Assembly: GCA_902760865.1 (NCBI GenBank)
Contig: CACWID010000012.1
Location: forward strand, 1 to 62,889
DNA from: an uncultured Bacteroidales bacterium
GTDB taxonomy: Bacteria > Bacteroidota > Bacteroidia > Bacteroidales > Muribaculaceae
DNA length: 62,889 bases
Direction: 5' to 3'
Shown here: positions 15,750-25,014 of the stretch, one piece after another
How the letters are laid out: each line of letters begins with the position of its first letter
Numbering within the stretch: position 1 is the stretch's first letter
Position numbers and translations under genes: made by a program
The notes under the pieces: model-generated
What the model was told of the DNA's origin: nothing
The model's input: the letters and a program-made list of their open reading frames with translations, nothing else
Database searches by the model: none

Positions 15750-17657
15750 GTGAAAATACTTTCTATTAACGACCTCAACAACTTGAGGAAGCGTGCGCAA
15801 CAGGCATTGGCGCTGCGCGAGGAAAGTTCTGACAAGGAGTCAGAGCAGTGTTGTGGTCTTGCAACGGGAGCCGAACACCTGCAGGTGCTCTGCTGTGGCG
15901 GTACTGGTTGCAAAGCATCCAACAGCCACAAAATCGTTGATAACTTGAAAGCTGCCGTCGAGGAGAATGGTATCGCCGATAAGGTGGATGTCATCACGAC
16001 CGGTTGCTTCGGTTTCTGCGAGAAGGGTCCCATCGTGAAAATCATCCCCGACAACACTTTCTACACCCAGGTGAAGCCCGAGGATGCTGCCGAGATCGTC
16101 AAGGAGCACATCATCGGTGGTCGCCGCGTAGAGCGTCTGCTCTATGTTGACCCCAAGACCAACAAGACGGTGAGCGACAGCAAGCACATGGACTTCTATC
16201 GCAAGCAGATGCGTATCGCTCTGCGTAACTGCGGCCTTATCGATCCCGAGAACATTGAGGAGTACATTGCCCGTGACGGTTACCAGGGTATCGCTAACGC
16301 ACTTCTCAACCAGACCCCCGAAGAGGTGATTGAGGTCATCAAGGCCTCGGGCCTGCGTGGTCGTGGTGGCGCCGGCTTCCCCACCGGTATGAAGTGGGGC
16401 TTTGCCCGCGGTTATGACGCCGACGAGAAGTATGTAGTCTGCAACGCTGATGAGGGCGACCCCGGTGCATTCATGGACCGCTCCATCATGGAGGGTGACC
16501 CCAACTCGGTGATTGAGGCAATGACCGTCTGCGGTTACTGCATCAACTCCCACAAGGGTCTGATCTACATCCGTGCTGAGTATCCCCTGGCTGTTCACCG
16601 CCTGAAGATCGCTATCCAGCAGGCTCGCGAGTACGGTCTGCTTGGCAAGAAGATCCTGGGAACTGACTTTGACTTTGATATTGAGATCCGCTACGGTGCT
16701 GGTGCATTCGTCTGCGGTGAGGAGACCGCTCTAATCCACTCGATGGAGGGTAAGCGCGGTGAGCCCACCCTGAAGCCGCCGTTCCCCGCCGAGGCCGGTT
16801 ACAACATGAAGCCGACCAACGTGAACAACGTTGAGACCCTGGCCAACGTGCCTATTATCTTGACCAAGGGTGCTGACTGGTTCTCCTCGATCGGTACCGA
16901 GAAGAGCAAGGGTACCAAGGTATTCGCTCTGGCCGGTAAGATCAACAACGTGGGCCTTATCGAGGTTCCCATGGGTACCACCCTGCGTGAGATCATCTAC
17001 GACATCGGTGGTGGCGTGAAGAACGGTAAGGAGTTCAAGGCCGTGCAGACTGGTGGCCCCTCGGGTGGCTGCTTGACTCAGAAGCACCTTGACACTCCCA
17101 TCGATTATGAGCACCTCGCTGCATCGGGCTCGATGATGGGTTCCGGTGGTATGATCGTCATGGACGAGGACGACTGTATGGTCAGCGTGGCCAAGTTCTA
17201 CCTCGAGTTCACCTGCGACGAGAGCTGTGGTAAGTGCACCCCGTGCCGCATCGGTAACAAGCGTATGCTTGAGATCCTTACCCGCATTACCGAGGGCAAG
17301 GGAACTATGGAAGACCTGGAGCACCTCAAGGTGCTGGGCGAGACCATCAAGGATACTGCCCTGTGCGGTCTGGGCCAGACCTCTCCCAATCCTGTGTTAT
17401 CGACCATCAACAACTTCTGGGACGAATATGTGGAGCACGTGAAACAGCACACCTGCCGCGCTAAGCAGTGCAAGGCCCTTGTGACCTACAGCATTGAAGC
17501 CTCCAAGTGTAAGGGTTGCGGTGCTTGCGCCCGCAAGTGCCCCGCTAACGCCATCATGGGCGACATTCGCAAACCTCACATTATTAACCCCTTCGAGTGC
17601 ATCCGCTGCGGTATGTGTAAGTCTAATTGCCGCTTCGACGCCATCTCGGTTTATTAA
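15750..17657 (+). CDS. hydB: NAD-dependent electron-bifurcating [FeFe] hydrogenase, subunit HydB (NuoF-like)
   Basis: 635 residues; GTG start. Domains in order: thioredoxin-like [2Fe-2S] (~40-130; C49-x4-C54 and C86-x3-C90), NuoF-type FMN/NADH domain (~175-420; GLRGRGGAGFPTGMKW at 202-216, CNADEGDPGAFMDR, GAGAFVCGEETAL), SLBB-like segment, [4Fe-4S] site ESCGKCTPC (C493, C496, C499, plus C539), and a C-terminal 2x[4Fe-4S] ferredoxin (C587/590/593/597 and C617/620/623/627). In the HydABC complex it holds the flavin where NADH and ferredoxin electrons are split or merged. The gene leads the operon, 14 nt before hydA. The domains at its two ends recur in the hydrogenase at 20448-22250. Confidence 0.93.
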   Translation: MKILSINDLNNLRKRAQQALALREESSDKESEQCCGLATGAEHLQVLCCGGTGCKASNSHKIVDNLKAAVEENGIADKVDVITTGCFGFCEKGPIVKIIPDNTFYTQVKPEDAAEIVKEHIIGGRRVERLLYVDPKTNKTVSDSKHMDFYRKQMRIALRNCGLIDPENIEEYIARDGYQGIANALLNQTPEEVIEVIKASGLRGRGGAGFPTGMKWGFARGYDADEKYVVCNADEGDPGAFMDRSIMEGDPNSVIEAMTVCGYCINSHKGLIYIRAEYPLAVHRLKIAIQQAREYGLLGKKILGTDFDFDIEIRYGAGAFVCGEETALIHSMEGKRGEPTLKPPFPAEAGYNMKPTNVNNVETLANVPIILTKGADWFSSIGTEKSKGTKVFALAGKINNVGLIEVPMGTTLREIIYDIGGGVKNGKEFKAVQTGGPSGGCLTQKHLDTPIDYEHLAASGSMMGSGGMIVMDEDDCMVSVAKFYLEFTCDESCGKCTPCRIGNKRMLEILTRITEGKGTMEDLEHLKVLGETIKDTALCGLGQTSPNPVLSTINNFWDEYVEHVKQHTCRAKQCKALVTYSIEASKCKGCGACARKCPANAIMGDIRKPHIINPFECIRCGMCKSNCRFDAISVY

Positions 17658-17671
17658 AATTCGATAGCATC

Positions 17672-19441
17672 ATGGAAGAAAAGAATATGATCACTTTGAC
17701 GATTGATAAACACGAGGTTACTGTTCCCGCAGGGACCATGCTGCTCGACGCTGCCAAGACCGTCGGCATCAGCATTCCCACCCTGTGCCACATCGACCTG
17801 GAGGGCACCTGTGTCCAGAACATGCCCGCCTCGTGCCGCATTTGCGTTGTGGAGATTGAAGGCCGTCGCAACCTGGCTCCCGCCTGCGCTACCCGCGTGA
17901 CTCCGGGTATGGTGGTTCACACCAATAGCGCCCGCGTGATCCGCGCCCGCAAGACCGTTGCCGAGCTGATGCTCAGCGACCATCCCAACGATTGCTTGAC
18001 CTGCCCCAAGTGCAGTGACTGTGAGTTGCAGCGTCTGGTTATGCGCTTCAACATCCGCAGGATGCCCTATAACGGTGGCGAACAGAGCGAGCGCAAGCAG
18101 GAGTTGACTCCCGCTATCTCGCGCAACATGGAGAAGTGTGTTTACTGCCGCCGTTGCGAGAGCGTCTGCAACAATGTTCAGTCTGTCGGCGTGCTGAGCG
18201 CTATCCGTCGTGGTTTCAACACCACCATCGCTCCCACCTTCGACAAGATGTTCACCGACACCAACTGTACCTATTGCGGTCAGTGTGTTGCCGTTTGTCC
18301 CACTGGCGCCCTTACCGAGCATGACTACACCAACCAGCTCATGGACGACCTGACCGACCCCGACAAGGTGGTTGTGGCTCAGCCTGCTCCCGCCGTGCGC
18401 TTCGCACTGGGCGAGGAATTCGGCATGAAGCCCGGTACTATCGTGACGGGCAAGTTGGCTACCGCATTGCGCGACCTGGGCTTTGACTATGCATTTGATA
18501 CCGACTTCGCTGCCGACCTCACCATCATGGAGGAGGGCACCGAGATCCTGCAACGCCTGAACAAGTTCCTTGCTGGCGATAAGGATGTGAAGTTGCCGAT
18601 CATGACTTCGTGCTGCCCCGCTTGGGTGAACTTCTATGAGCACGAGTATCCCGACCTGCTCGAGTATCCCTCGACTGCCAAGTCGCCCGCTCAGATGTTC
18701 GGTGCTGTTGCCAAGACCTACTGGGCCGAGAAGATGGGTATCCCCCGCGAGAAACTCGTGGTCGTTTCTATCATGCCCTGCTTGGCCAAGAAGTATGAGG
18801 CTGGCCGTGAAGAGTTCAAGGTGAATGGCAATCCCGATGTGGATTACAGCATCTCGACCCGTGAGCTCGGTCGCCTGATCAAGCGCGCCAACATCGACTT
18901 CGTCAACCTGCCTGACAGCGACTTTGACTCGCCCCTCGGCGAATCGACCGGTGCTGGTGCCATCTTCGGCATCACTGGCGGTGTGATGGAGGCTGCATTG
19001 CGTACCGTCTATGAGGTACACACCGGCAAGACCCTGCCTCACCTCGAGTTCAACGAGGTGCGTGGCTTCGAGGGCATCAAGGAGGCTACCATCGACCTGA
19101 ACGGCTTTGAGCTGAAGGTCTGCGTAGCTCACACCCTGAGCAATGCCCGCAAGGTGATGGACGCCCTGCGTGCCGGCAAGCTCAACTACCATGTGGTTGA
19201 GGTAATGGCATGTCCCGGTGGTTGCATCGGTGGTGCAGGTCAGCCCTACCACCATGGCAACATCGAGATCCTCAAGGCCCGTGCTGCTGCCGTTTACCGT
19301 GAGGACGAAGGCAAGGCCCTGCGCAAGAGCCACGAGAACCCCGACATCCAGAAACTCTACAAGGAATTCCTGGGCGAGCCCTGTGGCGAGAAGTCTCACC
19401 ACCTGCTTCACACGCATTATTTCGATAAGTCCATTCATTAA
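17672..19441 (+). CDS. hydA: [FeFe] hydrogenase catalytic subunit HydA (group A, bifurcating type)
   Basis: 589 residues from the ATG at 17672. A longer frame from 17627 overlaps hydB and adds 15 residues with no family match. Order: plant-type [2Fe-2S] domain (cysteines near 39-72), His-ligated [4Fe-4S] (H104-x3-C108-x2-C111-x5-C117), 2x[4Fe-4S] (CVYCRRCESVC at 156-166; CTYCGQCVAVC at 199-209), then the H-cluster domain with all three signatures: L1 TSCCPAW (C314 proton relay, C315), L2 MPCLAKKYE (C370), L3 MACPGGCIGGAGQP (C514, C518). The C-terminal small-subunit-like region is present. It makes or oxidises H2 using electrons passed through HydB. It needs the HydE/F/G maturases; hydF and hydG are nearby. 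Confidence 0.95.
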   Translation: MEEKNMITLTIDKHEVTVPAGTMLLDAAKTVGISIPTLCHIDLEGTCVQNMPASCRICVVEIEGRRNLAPACATRVTPGMVVHTNSARVIRARKTVAELMLSDHPNDCLTCPKCSDCELQRLVMRFNIRRMPYNGGEQSERKQELTPAISRNMEKCVYCRRCESVCNNVQSVGVLSAIRRGFNTTIAPTFDKMFTDTNCTYCGQCVAVCPTGALTEHDYTNQLMDDLTDPDKVVVAQPAPAVRFALGEEFGMKPGTIVTGKLATALRDLGFDYAFDTDFAADLTIMEEGTEILQRLNKFLAGDKDVKLPIMTSCCPAWVNFYEHEYPDLLEYPSTAKSPAQMFGAVAKTYWAEKMGIPREKLVVVSIMPCLAKKYEAGREEFKVNGNPDVDYSISTRELGRLIKRANIDFVNLPDSDFDSPLGESTGAGAIFGITGGVMEAALRTVYEVHTGKTLPHLEFNEVRGFEGIKEATIDLNGFELKVCVAHTLSNARKVMDALRAGKLNYHVVEVMACPGGCIGGAGQPYHHGNIEILKARAAAVYREDEGKALRKSHENPDIQKLYKEFLGEPCGEKSHHLLHTHYFDKSIH

Positions 19442-19464: not shown

Positions 19465-19959
19465 ATGAAGAAGAAAGAAGAAATCAAACTGGCGTGTACC
19501 GTTGTTCAACAGGTTGAGGAAATCTGCGACAAGCACGGCAACAAGCCCGGTGAACTGATCAACGTGCTGCACGAGTGCCAGGCACTGCACGGCTATCTCC
19601 CTGAGGAGATGCAGCGCATCATCGCCCGCAAGCTGGGTATTCCGGCCTCCAAGGTCTATGGCGTGGTGACGTTCTACTCGTTCTTCACCATGACTCCCAA
19701 GGGCAAGCACCCGATTTCAGTATGCTTGGGTACCGCATGCTACGTGCGCGGTTCAGAGCGTCTGCTTGAGGAGATCAAGCGCATCCTCAACATTGAGGTA
19801 GGCGAGACCACTCCCGACGGCAAGTTCTCGCTCGACTGCCTGCGCTGCGTGGGCGCCTGCGGTCTGGCTCCCGTTGTCATGATCGGCGAGCACGTCTATG
19901 GCCGTCTCGACGTCAAGGACATCCGTCAGATCCTCGAGACCACCGCTGCACAGGACTAA
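19465..19959 (+). CDS. hydC: [FeFe] hydrogenase subunit HydC (NuoE-like [2Fe-2S] protein)
   Basis: 164 residues, thioredoxin-like NuoE family. Helical N-terminus (GELINVLHECQALHGYLPEE), then KVYGVVTFYSFF, and four [2Fe-2S] cysteines in CLGTACYVRG and CLRCVGACGLAP. It passes electrons between HydB and ferredoxin or the rest of the HydABC complex. It lies 23 nt behind hydA and is followed by a strong terminator, so the operon is hydB-hydA-hydC. Confidence 0.92.
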   Translation: MKKKEEIKLACTVVQQVEEICDKHGNKPGELINVLHECQALHGYLPEEMQRIIARKLGIPASKVYGVVTFYSFFTMTPKGKHPISVCLGTACYVRGSERLLEEIKRILNIEVGETTPDGKFSLDCLRCVGACGLAPVVMIGEHVYGRLDVKDIRQILETTAAQD

Positions 19960-20352: not shown

Positions 20353-20383
20353 TTGTGAAGTTGTCAGAAAAAATGTAATTTTG
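20353..20383 (+). promoter_or_regulatory. Promoter of the chimeric hydrogenase: TTG (20353-20355), 20-bp spacer, TAATTTTG (20376-20383)
   Basis: Good -33/-7 pair. With the terminator at 19986-20025 it shows that this gene is a separate transcription unit from hydBAC. The leader would be about 60 nt. Confidence 0.65.
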
Positions 20384-20447: not shown

Positions 20448-22250
20448 ATGGATATAAAACACAACGAGTCAGCGAATAAGGACACTGAAAATAATGAAGC
20501 CCGTGATTTACAGTCCTATGGGCTTTCTGCATCCGACCATGTGCAGGTTTTGTGTTGTAGCGGCTCGGCATGCTACAAATCCGGCAGCTTAAAAATCATT
20601 GATCAATTCATCCGCTTGATTGAGGAGTACGGATTGGGCAGTCGTGTTGATGTGGTAGCCACTGGTTGCTTTGGATTCTGTGCCAAGGGGCCGATTGTCA
20701 GGATTATGCCTGACAATACGACCTATGTCCATGTTCATCCCGAGGATGTAGAAGATATCGTCAAGACCCATATCATTGGCGGTAGTCTGCTTGACAGCCT
20801 TCAGTATGTGGATTTCACCGCCCATCAATTGATGGATGACTCCAAGCACTGGAGTTCCTATCCCAAGCAGTTGTCGATGGATGCCATGTTGCATGACTAC
20901 ATCTACGAGATCGGTGGCAAGAAATTCCTGTCGGTGCTGTCTTATGAAATCAACTCCGAGAAGTGCAAGGGATGTAGTGCCTGTAAACGCAATTGCCCCA
21001 GCAGCGCTATCGTGGGAGACTTGAGGCACCCTCATCTCATCAATCCCTATAAATGCACCTGCTGCGGCCATTGTACCACTAAGTGCCGTTTTGATGCCAT
21101 CCACGGTCCCGTAGGAGCCTTGTGCGAGCGCAATTATGTGGAAGACCTGCTTGTCGATGTCGCCGACCCTGACAAGATTGTCGTTGCCCAGACAGCTCCC
21201 GCCGTGAGATATGCGCTCGGAGAGGAGTTCGGTATGCCTCCAGGCACGATTGTGACGGGCAAGATGGTCACGGCCCTGCGCAAGGTGGGCGTGGATTATG
21301 TGTTCGACACCGATTTTGGCGCCGACATTACCATCATGGAGGAGGCAGCCGAGGTTGTTGACCGCTTGAGGAAATTCATTGCCGGTGACCGTAATGTGAA
21401 GATTCCTATCACCACATCATGTTGCCCGGCATGGGTGAATTTCTACGAGAACGAATATCCCGACCTGCGTGAGTATCCGTCAACCTGCAAGTCTCCGGCA
21501 CAGATGCTTGGTGCAGTGCTCAAGACTTACTGGGCTCAGCGCATGGGCATTCCGCGTGAAAATCTTGTGGTCGTTTCGATCATGCCCTGCATCTCCAAGA
21601 AGTATGAATGCGCTCGCGACGAGTTTGTCAACGAGGGAACGCCCGATGTGGACTATTCGATCACGACAATAGAGCTGGCCGAGCTGATTCGGCGGATGAA
21701 CATCAACTTTGACCAGTTGCGTGACACGGAATTTGACTCGCCGCTGGGTGACCCCTCGGGAGCCGGTGCAATCTTCGGCACGACGGGCGGTGTGATGGAA
21801 GCGGTTTTGCGCACGGTCTATGAGGAGTTTACAGGCCGGACCCTTCAGCATATAGAGTTTGAGCAAGTCCGTGGACTTGACGGTATCCGTGAAGCGGTCA
21901 TCGACCTGGATGGTTTTGAGCTCAAGGTATGTGTTGTCAACACCCTGGCCAATGCCCGGATGGTGATGGATAAGTTGCGTGCAGGAGAACTGGAATATCA
22001 TGTCATCGAAGTCATGGCATGTCCTGGCGGATGCATTGGCGGTACCGGACAGCCTTACCACCACGGCGACATAGAGGTCATCAAGGCCCGACAGCGTGCC
22101 ATCTACAGCGAAGACGTCGGCAAGCGCCTGCGCAAGAGCCACGAGAATCCTGTCATTATTCGCCTCTACAATGAGTTCCTGGGAGAGCCCTTGCATGGCC
22201 GTGCACATGAGCTCCTCCACACCAAGTATCGCGACAAGTCAATCCTTTGA
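20448..22250 (+). CDS. Chimeric single-chain [FeFe] hydrogenase (HydB ends fused to the HydA H-cluster domain)
   Basis: 600 residues. After a ~30-residue polar start: a thioredoxin-like [2Fe-2S] domain (~32-125; C37-x4-C42 and C74-x3-C78) closely resembling the N-terminus of HydB; a linker still HydB-like to ~145 (DDSKHWSSYPKQ); a 2x[4Fe-4S] ferredoxin (C173/176/179/183 and C203/206/209/213) resembling the HydB C-terminus; then the H-cluster domain: TSCCPAW (C325, C326), MPCISKKYE (C381), MACPGGCIGGTGQP (C525, C529). The NADH/FMN domain of HydB and all N-terminal clusters of HydA are missing. HydB-like sequence ends at CRFDAI and HydA-like sequence resumes at the PVGAL segment. All catalytic-site residues are kept, so it is probably active, with ferredoxin or another small carrier as partner rather than NADH. 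The deposited family name, if any, is unknown to me. Confidence 0.85.
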   Translation: MDIKHNESANKDTENNEARDLQSYGLSASDHVQVLCCSGSACYKSGSLKIIDQFIRLIEEYGLGSRVDVVATGCFGFCAKGPIVRIMPDNTTYVHVHPEDVEDIVKTHIIGGSLLDSLQYVDFTAHQLMDDSKHWSSYPKQLSMDAMLHDYIYEIGGKKFLSVLSYEINSEKCKGCSACKRNCPSSAIVGDLRHPHLINPYKCTCCGHCTTKCRFDAIHGPVGALCERNYVEDLLVDVADPDKIVVAQTAPAVRYALGEEFGMPPGTIVTGKMVTALRKVGVDYVFDTDFGADITIMEEAAEVVDRLRKFIAGDRNVKIPITTSCCPAWVNFYENEYPDLREYPSTCKSPAQMLGAVLKTYWAQRMGIPRENLVVVSIMPCISKKYECARDEFVNEGTPDVDYSITTIELAELIRRMNINFDQLRDTEFDSPLGDPSGAGAIFGTTGGVMEAVLRTVYEEFTGRTLQHIEFEQVRGLDGIREAVIDLDGFELKVCVVNTLANARMVMDKLRAGELEYHVIEVMACPGGCIGGTGQPYHHGDIEVIKARQRAIYSEDVGKRLRKSHENPVIIRLYNEFLGEPLHGRAHELLHTKYRDKSIL

Positions 22251-22289: not shown

Positions 22290-23492
22290 TCATGGGAGGG
22301 AAACCTTTCCCAGGATGCCCTTGATGTGTGCTATGGTGATGCCGTAGTTGGTCATCGGTGTGCCCTGGCGGCGACATTGCATCACACGCGAGAGCATGAA
22401 CTTGCTATTGAACATGCAACCGCCACAATGGATGACGAGGTCATAGCCGGTCACATCCTTCGGGAAATCCTTGCCCGCCACAATGTCGATGCCCAGACCA
22501 TCTCCCACACGTTGACGCAGCAGGCGCGGAATCTTCACCCTGCCAATGTCCTCGGCTAGCGGGGCATGGGTGCAGGCTTCGGCTATGAGCACCCGGGACT
22601 GTTCGTTCAGGCGGTCGATGGCCATCGCGCTCCTGATGAAGAAACGGATGTCGCCCTTATGGGCCGCCATGAGCACCGAGAAGGAGGTGAGCAGGCAGCC
22701 TTCGGGCCTTTTCTTCTCCACGATGTCAAACACTTGCGAGTCGGTGATGATGAGTCGTGGAGGTTCCTTCAGTGCTGCCAGGGTGCTGTCGATATCCTCG
22801 GTCGTGCAGCAGATGGCGATGCAGCGCTTGTCCATCAGGTCGCGCAGTGTCTGCACCTGGGGCAGGATGAGACGCCCCTTGGGGGCCTGCGGATCCTGTG
22901 GCATGACCAGCAGCACGGTGTCGCCCGCCTGGGCAAGATTGCCGGTCAATGACTGTTTCTCACTTTCAGGCATGAGCCCTGCCAGAGTATTCCGCAGCAG
23001 GTCAAGACCTGTGCCGTTGATGGCGCTCACGGGGATGGCGTCACAGCCCAGCCGCTTAGCGATGTCGGCGAGTAGGGTAGTGGGCGCTTCGTTCATCAGG
23101 TCCACCTTGTTCAGCACGGCGACAAACGGAACATTGGCTTGTTTGAGCGACACAGCCCACGACGCCTCGTCGTCGAGCGATGTGCCGTCGGTGACGATAA
23201 TCGCGATGTCGGTCTGCTTGATGACCTCACGGGTGCGCTCGGTGCGCAGGTCACCCACCTTGCCGCTGTCGTCGAAACCAGCCGTGTCGATGAGCACACA
23301 TGGCCCTAACGGCAAAATCTCCATCGATTTCATCACCGGGTCGGTCGTCGTGCCCGGAACATCGCTCACCAGAGCCACCTGCTGCCCCGTGAGGGCATTG
23401 ATGAGCGACGACTTGCCCGCATTGCGCCTTCCGAACAGCGCAATGTGCAACCGCTCACTCTGCGGCGCCCTGTTAAATGCATTATCTACCAT
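22290..23492 (-). CDS. hydF: [FeFe] hydrogenase maturation GTPase HydF
   Basis: 400 residues. N-terminal GTPase domain: P-loop GRRNAGKSS (21-29), DTAG (69-72), NKVD (128-131). Middle dimerisation domain, then a C-terminal cluster domain with the HydF signature C307-x-H309-x46-C356-x2-C359 (EACTHAP and HCGGCMFN). It is the scaffold that carries the assembling 2Fe subcluster and delivers it to apo-HydA. It is transcribed toward the chimeric hydrogenase and ends 40 bp from it. Upstream on the same strand is hydG, separated by 106 bp that contain a long inverted repeat. Confidence 0.95.
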   Translation of the reverse strand: MVDNAFNRAPQSERLHIALFGRRNAGKSSLINALTGQQVALVSDVPGTTTDPVMKSMEILPLGPCVLIDTAGFDDSGKVGDLRTERTREVIKQTDIAIIVTDGTSLDDEASWAVSLKQANVPFVAVLNKVDLMNEAPTTLLADIAKRLGCDAIPVSAINGTGLDLLRNTLAGLMPESEKQSLTGNLAQAGDTVLLVMPQDPQAPKGRLILPQVQTLRDLMDKRCIAICCTTEDIDSTLAALKEPPRLIITDSQVFDIVEKKRPEGCLLTSFSVLMAAHKGDIRFFIRSAMAIDRLNEQSRVLIAEACTHAPLAEDIGRVKIPRLLRQRVGDGLGIDIVAGKDFPKDVTGYDLVIHCGGCMFNSKFMLSRVMQCRRQGTPMTNYGITIAHIKGILGKVSLP

Positions 23493-23598: not shown

Positions 23599-25014
23599 TT
23601 AGAAGTAGAAGTCGCGCTGGCCGGCAGCAATCTCCTGGATGTGCTTGGCGGCGATTTCGCGCACTCGCTCATTCGATATCTTGGCCAGTTCCTGCTCGAT
23701 GAGGGCGTTACCCTTGGCAACGGTGTCCGCGCTGGCAAAGTCCATGAGGTATTCCTTGAGCGTCATCAGCGCGTTGGGCGTGCAGATGTCACCGATCTTG
23801 CCGGCTTTGCACAGTTCCATGAAACGGTCGCCCGTGCGGCCCGAACGGTAACATGCGGTGCAGAAGCTGGGCAGGTAACCGATGGAGAGCAGCCAGTTGA
23901 TGACCTCGTCGAGGGTGCGTGTGTCGCTCACATCAAACTGTGCCGTCTCGTCGTGGCGCTCGACGGTGGTGTAACCGCCGACACTGGTGCGGCTGCCACC
24001 GCTGATCTGGGAAACGCCCAGGTCAAGCACCTTGGCGCGCACGCTCTGGCTCTCGCGGGTGGAGATGATCATGCCGGTGTAGGGCACGGCCAGGCGAATG
24101 ACAGCGATGATGCGGCAGAAGATCTCGTCGGGCAGCACGTCGGGGAACTCGTCGAGGGTGATGTCCTCGGCGGGGCAGATGCGCGGCACGCTGATGGTGT
24201 GCGGGCCGACGCCGAACTTGGCCTCCAGATGCTCGGCATGCATGAGCAGGCCGACAAAGTCATAGCGGTAGGTTGTCAGGCCATAAAGCACACCGATGCC
24301 CACGTCGTCACAGCCGCCCAATTGGGCACGGTCCATGGCCTCGGTGTGATAGCAGTAGTTGCTCTTGGGGCCCGTGGGATGCAGTGCCTCGTAGTTCTTG
24401 CGGTTGTAGGTTTCCTGGAACAGGATATAGGTACCGATGCCGGCGGCCTTGAGCTTCTCGTAAGCCTCGACCTCGGTCGCGGCGATGTTCACGTTCAGGC
24501 GGCGGATTTCACCATTGCCCACCTTGGTATTATAGATGGTGTGAATCGACTCCAGAATGTACTCCAGCGGGTTCATCACGGGGTGCTCGCCAGCCTCGAG
24601 AGCGATGCGCTTGTGGCCCATCTTGACCAAGGCCTCGACCTCGGCGCGGATCTCATCCTGCGACAGTTTCTTGCGAGGGATGGTCTTGTTCTTGGCATGG
24701 TAGGGGCAATAGACGCACCCGTTGATGCAATAGTTAGACAGATAAAGCGGGGCGAACATCACAATGCGGTTGCCGTAGAAGCGGCGCTTCACGTCCTTGG
24801 CCAGTTGCTCGTAGCGCTCAATCAGGTCTGGCTGGTCACAGTCCAGCAGGACCGCAGCCTCGCGGTGGGTCAGGCCCTTACACAGGGCGGCTTTATCGAT
24901 AATCTGTTCTATCAGAGCACGGTTGCTCTTATTCTTCTCAGCGTAGGATAGAGTCTCCAGTATCTCGCTATCGTCGATGAATTCATCGGCATGGTTAGAC
25001 TTGACGTTATACAT
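23599..25014 (-). CDS. hydG: [FeFe] hydrogenase maturase HydG (radical SAM tyrosine lyase)
   Basis: 471 residues. Radical-SAM motif C96-x3-C100-x2-C103 in YLSNYCINGCVYC, and the HydG-specific C-terminal auxiliary cluster motif C385-x2-C388-x22-C411, which separates it from ThiH. It splits tyrosine to supply the CO and CN ligands of the H-cluster. Its own promoter lies on the minus strand (TATATTTG at 25057-25050). Downstream is hydF. The third maturase, HydE, is not found anywhere in the window and must lie elsewhere. Confidence 0.95.
   Translation of the reverse strand: MYNVKSNHADEFIDDSEILETLSYAEKNKSNRALIEQIIDKAALCKGLTHREAAVLLDCDQPDLIERYEQLAKDVKRRFYGNRIVMFAPLYLSNYCINGCVYCPYHAKNKTIPRKKLSQDEIRAEVEALVKMGHKRIALEAGEHPVMNPLEYILESIHTIYNTKVGNGEIRRLNVNIAATEVEAYEKLKAAGIGTYILFQETYNRKNYEALHPTGPKSNYCYHTEAMDRAQLGGCDDVGIGVLYGLTTYRYDFVGLLMHAEHLEAKFGVGPHTISVPRICPAEDITLDEFPDVLPDEIFCRIIAVIRLAVPYTGMIISTRESQSVRAKVLDLGVSQISGGSRTSVGGYTTVERHDETAQFDVSDTRTLDEVINWLLSIGYLPSFCTACYRSGRTGDRFMELCKAGKIGDICTPNALMTLKEYLMDFASADTVAKGNALIEQELAKISNERVREIAAKHIQEIAAGQRDFYF

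Follow-up and report, generated by a model that had tools for sequence, protein, structure and literature searches.

A single-chain [FeFe] hydrogenase derived from HydB and HydA modules, probably ferredoxin-only, in a genus of Muribaculaceae

Domain architecture of the chimeric hydrogenase

The window analysed here is the whole stretch of 62,889 nucleotides of contig CACWID010000012.1 (assembly GCA_902760865.1) of an uncultured Bacteroidales bacterium of the family Muribaculaceae, i.e., contig 12 from a genome (G000) of 3.35 Mb and 95% completeness. Behind the hydBAC genes, it contains a gene for a 600-residue protein, hereafter named the chimera, in which both ends of HydB are joined to the H-cluster catalytic domain (H domain) of HydA. 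By its sequence, the chimera is a group A [FeFe] hydrogenase with an architecture for which no name was found so far. It is probably a paralogous, single-chain enzyme that arose by duplication and deletion of hydBA, and that is ferredoxin-only and non-bifurcating. The coordinates of the chimera, its modules and its neighbours are summarized in Table 1.

The mosaic had been proposed in an earlier, sequence-only reading of the same DNA, which likened residues ~32-145 to the N-terminal domain of HydB, ~165-218 to the C-terminal ferredoxin of HydB, and ~221-600 to HydA. BLASTP comparisons with the proteins of the window bore out the three assignments: residues 7-142 of the chimera matched residues 25-154 of its own HydB (about 48-49% over 137-139 columns), residues 158-218 matched HydB 572-632 (54% over 61 residues), and residues 169-599 matched HydA 152-588 (64% over 444 columns, ferredoxin included). 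HydC, considered as the origin of the thioredoxin-like part, was rejected with 25% over 75 residues, versus the value given for HydB. The HydB segment absent from the chimera corresponds to residues ~155-571, containing the NADH/FMN/SLBB/4Fe-4S modules and the hinge; these ~417 residues are close to the ~430 estimated before. The HydA segment absent is formed by the first ~209 residues, with the [2Fe-2S], the His-[4Fe-4S] and the own ferredoxin clusters, as had also been noticed. The Pfam matches of the chimera were 2Fe-2S_thioredx, Fer4, Fe_hyd_lg_C and Fe_hyd_SSU. The same library gave no match in it for the HydB domains Complex1_51K, SLBB and NADH_4Fe-4S, or for Fer2_4 and NADH-G_4Fe-4S_3, both of which are found in HydA.

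The join itself was located in an alignment of chimera, HydA and HydB sequences. Past the last ferredoxin cysteine, the chimera reads CRFDAIHG-PVGALCERNY. HydB of the window ends in CRFDAISVY, and that of some other members of the genus in CKFDAIHVF or a CRFDAIHVF-like sequence, while HydA continues after its last cysteine as C-PTGALTEHDY in the window and as C-PVGALTERDY in several genomes. Both post-cysteine segments, CRFDAIH of HydB and PVGAL of HydA, stand thus in tandem in the chimera, as expected of an end-to-end fusion scar and unlike a gradual change of one ferredoxin. The junction had been placed right behind the last cluster cysteine. In the chimera, however, Cys213 is followed first by the RFDAIH tail of HydB and then by the PVGAL segment, which comes immediately after the last cysteine in HydA only.

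A parallel fusion was observed in another locus of the genus (L069:3678-7358), where hydB and hydA form a single frame of 1226 residues by an 11-nt boundary difference with respect to the window. The record is uncultured and the frame could be an assembly error.

Descent from the hydB and hydA genes of the genus

The chimera alignment comprised 53 sequences, 52 of them distinct because those of loci L085 and L106 are identical, and these were divided into group 1 (31) and group 2 (22). In a tree of the H domain run by a quick method with 128 sequences, the 53 chimeras formed one clade (SH-aLRT 99) that joined 56 HydA of the genus (100), apart from 19 outgroup sequences. A more careful tree, run with a chosen subset of 44 sequences (20 genus HydA, 15 chimeras and 9 outgroup), united the genus HydA and the chimeras against the 9 outgroup sequences (100/100), and gave the chimeras as sister to 5 of the 20 genus HydA (99/95). 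In the approximately unbiased (AU) test, forcing the genus HydA together cost 7.97 log units (p-AU 0.046), for a group that was named post hoc. The exact branching point of the chimera within the genus HydA is therefore tentative.

Concerning the HydB-derived parts, a quick tree of the ferredoxin, based on few columns, placed the chimeras with 57 HydB of the genus (97), apart from 75 HydA ferredoxins (100). When the N-terminal domain and the ferredoxin were considered together, the chimeras formed one clade (100/100), joined to HydB beside the genus sequences and away from the outgroup, with a long branch to HydB that was flagged by the program.

These trees agree with the tandem duplication of hydBA and internal deletions suggested by the sequence-only reading. 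Separate trees for the parts, proposed there as a test, put the N-terminal and ferredoxin regions with the HydB of the genus, and the H domain with its HydA. Because the parts group with HydB and HydA of their own genus, a local duplication with internal deletion is indicated; for the same placement, the idea that other Bacteroidales supplied the parts was rejected. The sequence comparisons support one hydBA duplication inside the genus, with mostly vertical spread and losses, and from them the chimera is judged to be old within the genus. In an ancestor belonging to the genus, the hydB-hydA pair would have been copied next to its operon of origin, and the copy would have lost the core and hinge of HydB (~417 residues) and the N-terminal part of HydA (~209 residues), the two HydB ends becoming thereby fused to the H domain.

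A divergent HydABC lineage was observed in the genus, as the HydA of loci L085/L106, L088, L124, L130 and L151 is sister to the chimera clade. The chimera of L085 belongs to group 2, yet its HydA is sister to the chimeras, which hints at gene exchange or at an older paralog.

Conserved residues and selection

The ligands of the H-cluster had been described as intact in the window, and this can be extended to the whole set: the motif cysteines of TSCCP, MPC and CPGGC (Cys325, Cys326, Cys381, Cys525 and Cys529) were present in the 53 chimeras, and so were the eight cysteines of the ferredoxin (Cys173, Cys176, Cys179, Cys183, Cys203, Cys206, Cys209 and Cys213) and five of the thioredoxin-like domain (Cys36, Cys37, Cys42, Cys74 and Cys78). 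The chimera of the window retains the motifs TSCCPAW, MPCxxKKxE and CPGGCIGG.

Fixed differences between chimeras and HydA of the genus (≥95% on each side) were Asn229, Thr322, Asn335, Arg341, Cys347, Thr406 and Thr533. Cys347 (21486-21488), which is not a ligand, occurred in 53/53 chimeras, while alanine was found in all the 56 genus and 19 outgroup HydA. Another non-ligand, Cys205 (21060-21062), was a cysteine in 50 of the 53 chimeras. Cys388 is also invariant across the chimeras, but it was rejected as a chimera-only cysteine because it occurs in 40/57 genus and 11/20 outgroup HydA. The two groups of chimeras split at H-cluster motifs, with Ser383 and Ala524 in 31/31 of group 1, and Ala383 and Ser524 in 22/22 of group 2. 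In the 77 HydA aligned, the two residues that follow MPC end in Ala. We take position 383 to correspond to the site of Ser357 in the H2-producing CpI.

In 20 group 1 loci, the median ratio of nonsynonymous to synonymous substitution rates (dN/dS) was 0.054 in the chimera, where 59 of 190 pairs could be used, compared with 0.040 in HydA and 0.036 in HydB. By domains of the chimera, the values were 0.039 for the thioredoxin-like domain, 0.050 for the ferredoxin, 0.041 for the H domain and 0.474 for the N-terminal tail. From these sequence data, the chimera is under purifying selection. This bears on the idea of a decaying duplicate or an assembly artefact, which could be raised because the gene arose by duplication plus deletion, and because the titled loci are metagenome-assembled genome (MAG) or uncultured records. 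It is in conflict with the occurrence of the chimera in 57 of 101 genomes of the genus, the existence of two divergent groups, the invariant cysteines and a dN/dS of ~0.05, so that we give it hardly any credit. Chance or a pseudogene was discarded by the same genome count and dN/dS.

Class assignment and relation to known hydrogenases

The chimera passed the cut-off of TIGR02512 ([FeFe] hydrogenase, group A) with 466.5 bits versus 405.95, and this was the sole NCBIfam model above cut-off among the matches listed. It stayed below those of NF040763 (NADH-dependent group A6; 580.8 versus 765 bits, with model positions 186-571 matched) and NF040762 (Clostridial ferredoxin hydrogenase; 403.7 versus 900 bits). 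The Pfam scan of the chimera revealed no PAS, kinase, phosphatase or other signalling domain of the kind found in sensory group C. No description of a string formed by a thioredoxin-like [2Fe-2S] domain, a HydB-type ferredoxin and an H domain was found in the open full-text literature or in family libraries, a scope that older classification papers exceed.

The source of the three modules is HydABC, the group A3 bifurcating enzyme known from T. maritima, T. kivui and A. woodii. Compared to it, the chimera is a single chain devoid of the FMN/NADH/SLBB module, of the hinge cysteines and of the N-terminal clusters of HydA, and with these gone the proposed bifurcation routes could not operate in it. 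The best solved-structure match, both by sequence and by Foldseek E-value, was CbA5H of C. beijerinckii (SLBB, ferredoxin and H domain), which also has an accessory N-terminal domain ahead of ferredoxin and H domain. However, that domain is an SLBB domain with zinc, according to passages of PMC13397568, whereas in the chimera it is a thioredoxin-like [2Fe-2S] domain with no SLBB match. In the Desulfovibrio enzymes DdH/DvH (ferredoxin and H domain), two [4Fe-4S] clusters are wired directly to the H-cluster, as the structural model suggests for the chimera, but there is no thioredoxin-like domain, the enzyme is periplasmic by its PDB molecule name, and the ferredoxin is presumably of different origin.

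Other natural fusions of hydrogenase subunits are those of Nyctotherus ovalis and Syntrophus HydAB. In the account of PMC7311640, as far as its relevant passages go, these retain the NADH/flavin part and are NADH-dependent and non-bifurcating, while the chimera has lost that part. CperHydR, an [FeFe] hydrogenase-rubrerythrin, is likewise a natural chimera in which an [FeFe] hydrogenase has gained a new end, but passages of PMC11926857 assign to it a second catalytic domain, while the chimera studied here adds electron-transfer domains only.

Proposed function of the chimera

The modules kept and lost can be related to what has been published on HydB. In NiFe-HydABCSL, passages of PMC8880783 describe the N-terminal domain of HydB as thioredoxin-like with one [2Fe-2S] cluster (B5), and its C-terminal ferredoxin-like domain (B3, B4) as the foremost candidate to pass electrons on to ferredoxin. 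This C-terminal domain is preceded by the B2 site, which contains His and Cys, and without NADH the trimeric enzyme does not oxidise ferredoxin. For the T. maritima enzyme, passages of PMC9499530 report zinc at the B2-equivalent site, which is proposed to be the hinge of a mobile C-terminal domain, and name B1 the N-terminal [2Fe-2S] cluster, near the cluster of HydC. A non-bifurcating BfuB sub-type without B5 and B3B4, unlike bifurcating HydB, appears in a part of PMC11406978, and in a passage of PMC7311640 cluster number alone is considered not diagnostic of bifurcation.

With motif criteria taken from PMC7311640 and PMC8880783, the bifurcating-type motifs GGPSG and DPG[AE]xMDR were found in the 57 HydB of the genus, and the hinge motif H-x5-C-x4-C, with the spacing of PMC8880783, in 76 of 77 HydB. 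In contrast, the 40 residues ahead of the ferredoxin contained no cysteine in any of the 53 chimeras. The loss of the hinge is judged from this count, since the hinge pattern matches the thioredoxin-like part of 36 of the 53 chimeras by chance spacing. With the hinge cysteines lost, the mobile arm looks fixed in the chimera.

A structural model of the chimera (AlphaFold model 2, run with an alignment of 111 sequences) had a mean pLDDT of 83.3, with ~78-90 at residues 171-220 and less than 50 at 131-150 and 154-158, in the linker. The Foldseek matches of this model included five linked Desulfovibrio chains, with target-normalised TM scores of 0.80-0.82 and root-mean-square deviations of 2.8-3.0 over 438-442 columns. 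In the model, the HydB ferredoxin can take the place on the H domain that is occupied by the ferredoxin in Desulfovibrio.

The conservation of B5 and B3/B4 equivalents, together with the loss of the NADH wiring and the hinge, points to an enzyme fed by ferredoxin and uncoupled from NADH. Soluble reduced ferredoxin would give electrons at the HydB-derived iron-sulfur end, i.e., the 2x[4Fe-4S] domain, and these would pass through the HydB-type ferredoxin, placed like that of HydA, to the H-cluster, so that H2 would be made without NADH or flavin. The thioredoxin-like domain would be perhaps a docking or gating part. The chimera might then act as a ferredoxin-only valve beside a HydABC that confurcates NADH and ferredoxin. 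The genome of the window encodes PFOR, a source of reduced ferredoxin, it has no rnfC over the cut-off, and besides HydA and the chimera no frame of it exceeded 36 bits of TIGR02512 as a third [FeFe] hydrogenase. In this setting, a ferredoxin outlet would be useful. We infer in this way the redox partner, the direction and the physiological role of the chimera.

A more detailed proposal is that the B5 plus B3/B4 arm, cut from the flavin, unhinged and wired to the H-cluster, made a coupled enzyme ferredoxin-only, with the thioredoxin-like domain, strongly selected here despite a cluster termed a dead end in the parent complex, docking or gating, and with Cys347 retuning the surroundings of the H-cluster. 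Taken as a whole, this is possible but doubtful. If true, evolution would have run a decisive experiment on bifurcating hydrogenases. Ferredoxin docking on HydABC and a block on the NADH-free flow from ferredoxin to H2 are proposals in passages of PMC9499530 and PMC8880783. The chimera would isolate the question of the ferredoxin site in one chain, with the candidate modules and the H-cluster, and without flavin or hinge. It may also matter for rumen studies, in which most H2 production has been attributed by inference to group A3 [FeFe] hydrogenases (PMC9562222, in the relevant passages): a ferredoxin-only paralog in a genus with ruminant members would have different energetics, but its similar H domain might lead to its being counted as A3.

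Several observations weigh against the ferredoxin-only interpretation. A passage of PMC8880783 regards B5 as a dead end, and the B3/B4 ferredoxin site is a proposal in the consulted passages of both PMC8880783 and PMC9499530, the latter of which terms the scheme speculative. The best Foldseek E-values of model 2 corresponded to CbA5H chains, with root-mean-square deviations of 8.7-11.8 over 526-570 columns, N-domain included. Among the 111 sequences used for that model, 21 were ferredoxin plus H domain stretches of HydA, so the docking may be coached, and in model 1, run without them, residues 121-227 were disordered. Of the fixed differences, Thr322, Cys347 and Thr533 fall in or beside H-cluster motifs, and the chimera changes faster than HydA (median dN 0.084 versus 0.027), which together suggest that its bias or role may have shifted. 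Lastly, 18 of the 75 matched genomes carry HydB but lack the chimera, which indicates that it is dispensable.

The last points could suit an H2 or redox sensor or regulator, in which the H domain would sense H2 and the thioredoxin-like [2Fe-2S] end would signal to a partner: such a protein could be dispensable, evolve faster with changes like Thr322, Cys347 and Thr533, and have its own promoter. However, neither a PAS nor a kinase or phosphatase domain is present in the chimera, in contrast to the group C sensor of PMC6776011 (passages), Pfam recognized no regulator among the ten frames scanned next to chimeras of unlinked or interrupted loci, and the H-cluster motifs of the window are retained. 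So, a sensory function seems unlikely.

The changes in or near the H-cluster motifs would agree also with an enzyme that takes up H2 to reduce ferredoxin or a different acceptor, e.g., as a detoxification partner, and passages of PMC11926857 describe a strong bias to H2 oxidation in the natural hydrogenase-rubrerythrin chimera. Our chimera has, however, no second catalytic domain, and Ser383 occurs in 31/31 group 1 sequences, like Ser357 in the H2-producing CpI, an argument that is weak because Ala is found in 22/22 of group 2 and also ends the pair of residues behind MPC in the 77 HydA. Such a direction is quite improbable, and ferredoxin-driven H2 production is preferred.

Distribution and gene order

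The genome-level searches were made within Bacteroidota, on samples drawn evenly from larger groups, and only the best candidates per genome were scored (7 for order and family, 5 for phylum). In the genus, the 57 genomes with the chimera include two matched in part only (G728 and G788); another 18 had HydB without chimera, and 26 had neither at E ≤ 1e-30. Group 1 comprised 32 genomes including that of the window, the other 31 showing 76-87% identity to it over the first 240 residues, and group 2 comprised 24 genomes with 54-60% identity over the same residues, G788 remaining unplaced.

Outside the genus, the family sample (397 genomes), searched with a query containing the HydB N-part, gave no match at E ≤ 1e-12 in any genus save its own (1/30 matched). 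In the order sample (393 genomes), the own genome alone matched along the whole 220-residue query, and the same occurred in the phylum sample (395 genomes) with the full length of a 320-residue query. The presence of this architecture in other members of the phylum was rejected, as 49 genomes matched (that of the window among them) and, in one locus from each of 20 that were inspected, no string of thioredoxin-like domain, ferredoxin and H domain was seen; the 20 were, by eye, ordinary HydA-type frames that have a [2Fe-2S] stretch at the N-terminus. When 84,980 species genomes were scanned for patterns, 30 loci came out, of which 29 have the chimera and one (L088) has HydABC only; the patterns were those of one protein, so that the scan detects close relatives only.

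The carrier records were labelled Prevotellaceae, Porphyromonadaceae, Bacteroidales or Muribaculaceae, and the loci with titles were MAG or uncultured. Where the sources were named, they were goat, sheep and roe deer. The RUG isolates among the carriers are presumably rumen genomes. Among plasmids, 30 records matched, and one of the 15 listed (Phocaeicola) covered more than 80% of the query. It was rejected because the match consisted of 3 pieces over 3.7 kb of an unannotated record, taken as separate genes. The scan of viral contigs gave no relative of the chimera.

Among 20 outgroup loci, the nearest HydA, at 71% identity, was that of two genomes of other families (G059 and G008; L131 and L134). 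This, together with a family sample with no other match, suggests that hydABC may have been imported into the genus, or lost elsewhere.

In 53 further chimera loci (the window excluded), hydC was found at ≤650 nt upstream in 34 and at 2-5 kb in 7; for the remaining 12 no hydC was located, because of contig ends, short frames or a position elsewhere. The hydF gene was convergent within -4 to 153 nt of the chimera in 32 of the 53. In loci L127, L129 and L153, the gaps between hydC and hydF were 81, 69 and 75 nt, with no chimera between, so the chimera is truly absent from that site. HydB was also matched in 49 of the 57 carrier genomes, and of the 8 carriers left, at least 3 (L089, L067 and L075) had HydA on the contig of the chimera. 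This co-occurrence, like the proximity of hydC, would fit an accessory or exchange subunit, with the HydB-derived ends docking on HydABC and electrons being shared. On the other hand, the HydA N-terminal domains that receive the electrons of HydB are missing from the chimera, the gene has its own promoter, and no hydBAC was seen within the fetched stretch of at least five loci (L100, L103, L104, L107 and L114). It is therefore unlikely that the chimera serves as a subunit rather than as a separate ferredoxin-linked enzyme.

A partner gene beside unlinked or interrupted chimera loci was sought in ten scanned frames and no candidate appeared: they encode LRR_5/dockerin, S41 peptidase, CstA, Indigoidine_A, methyltransferase, Mur ligase and trypsin/PDZ proteins, and one was matchless. 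In three loci (L074:6410-9658, L089:3395-6967 and L092:5734-7758), BspA-type leucine-rich-repeat (LRR) plus dockerin genes separate hydC from the chimera. Two of them carry an FGE-sulfatase domain, and that of L092 ends 38 nt ahead of the likely start of the chimera.

Promoter and neighbouring genes

Table 1. Position of the chimera, its modules and the adjacent genes in the window.
Feature	Positions	Strand	Comment
Bacteroidota-type promoter (putative)	20353..20383	+	TTG (20353-20355), N20, TAATTTTG (20376-20383); 64 nt before ATG
Chimeric [FeFe] hydrogenase gene, 600 residues	20448..22250	+	ATG, no internal stop
Thioredoxin-like [2Fe-2S] domain, residues 31-121, from HydB N-terminus	20538..20810	+	
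Linker, residues 122-166; site of loss of HydB ~155-571	20811..20945	+	BLASTP break at HydB 154/572
2x[4Fe-4S] ferredoxin domain, residues 167-219, from HydB C-terminus (B3/B4 equivalent)	20946..21104	+	
Fusion scar HG-PVGAL, residues 219-225	21102..21122	+	Alignment of chimera, HydA and HydB sequences
H-cluster catalytic domain, residues 221-600, from HydA	21108..22247	+	
hydB, parent of the two N-side modules	15750..17657	+	GGPSG, DPG[AE]xMDR and H-x5-C-x4-C motifs
hydA, parent of the H domain	17672..19441	+	NF040763, 881.9 bits, cut-off 765
hydC, NuoE-like	19465..19959	+	Stop 488 nt upstream of the chimera
hydF, maturase, convergent with the chimera	22290..23492	-	TIGR03918, 535 bits; 39 nt between
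hydG, maturase	23599..25014	-	TIGR03955, 844.2 bits

The own promoter claimed before for the chimera was recognized in the window by what we take to be the Bacteroidota-type consensus, and it finds support in related loci. Counting the window, 38 of 53 loci had the pattern TTG-N18..22-TAnnTTTG in the 250 nt upstream, versus a mean of 0.69 and a largest value of 4 in 300 shuffles. The comparison is limited by the use of mononucleotide shuffles, by the relatedness of the loci, and by a relaxed pattern devised once the window had been viewed. A stricter pattern matched 7 of the 53 loci and missed the window. In 29 aligned upstream regions of group 1, TTG and GTAATTTTGT were conserved columns.

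Concerning maturation, HydE is encoded in the genome of the window on another contig (C33). In several group 2 loci (L091:14566-15687, L104:13717-14781 and similar), a second radical-SAM-like frame adjoins hydG. It shows 22-26% to HydG and is probably hydE.

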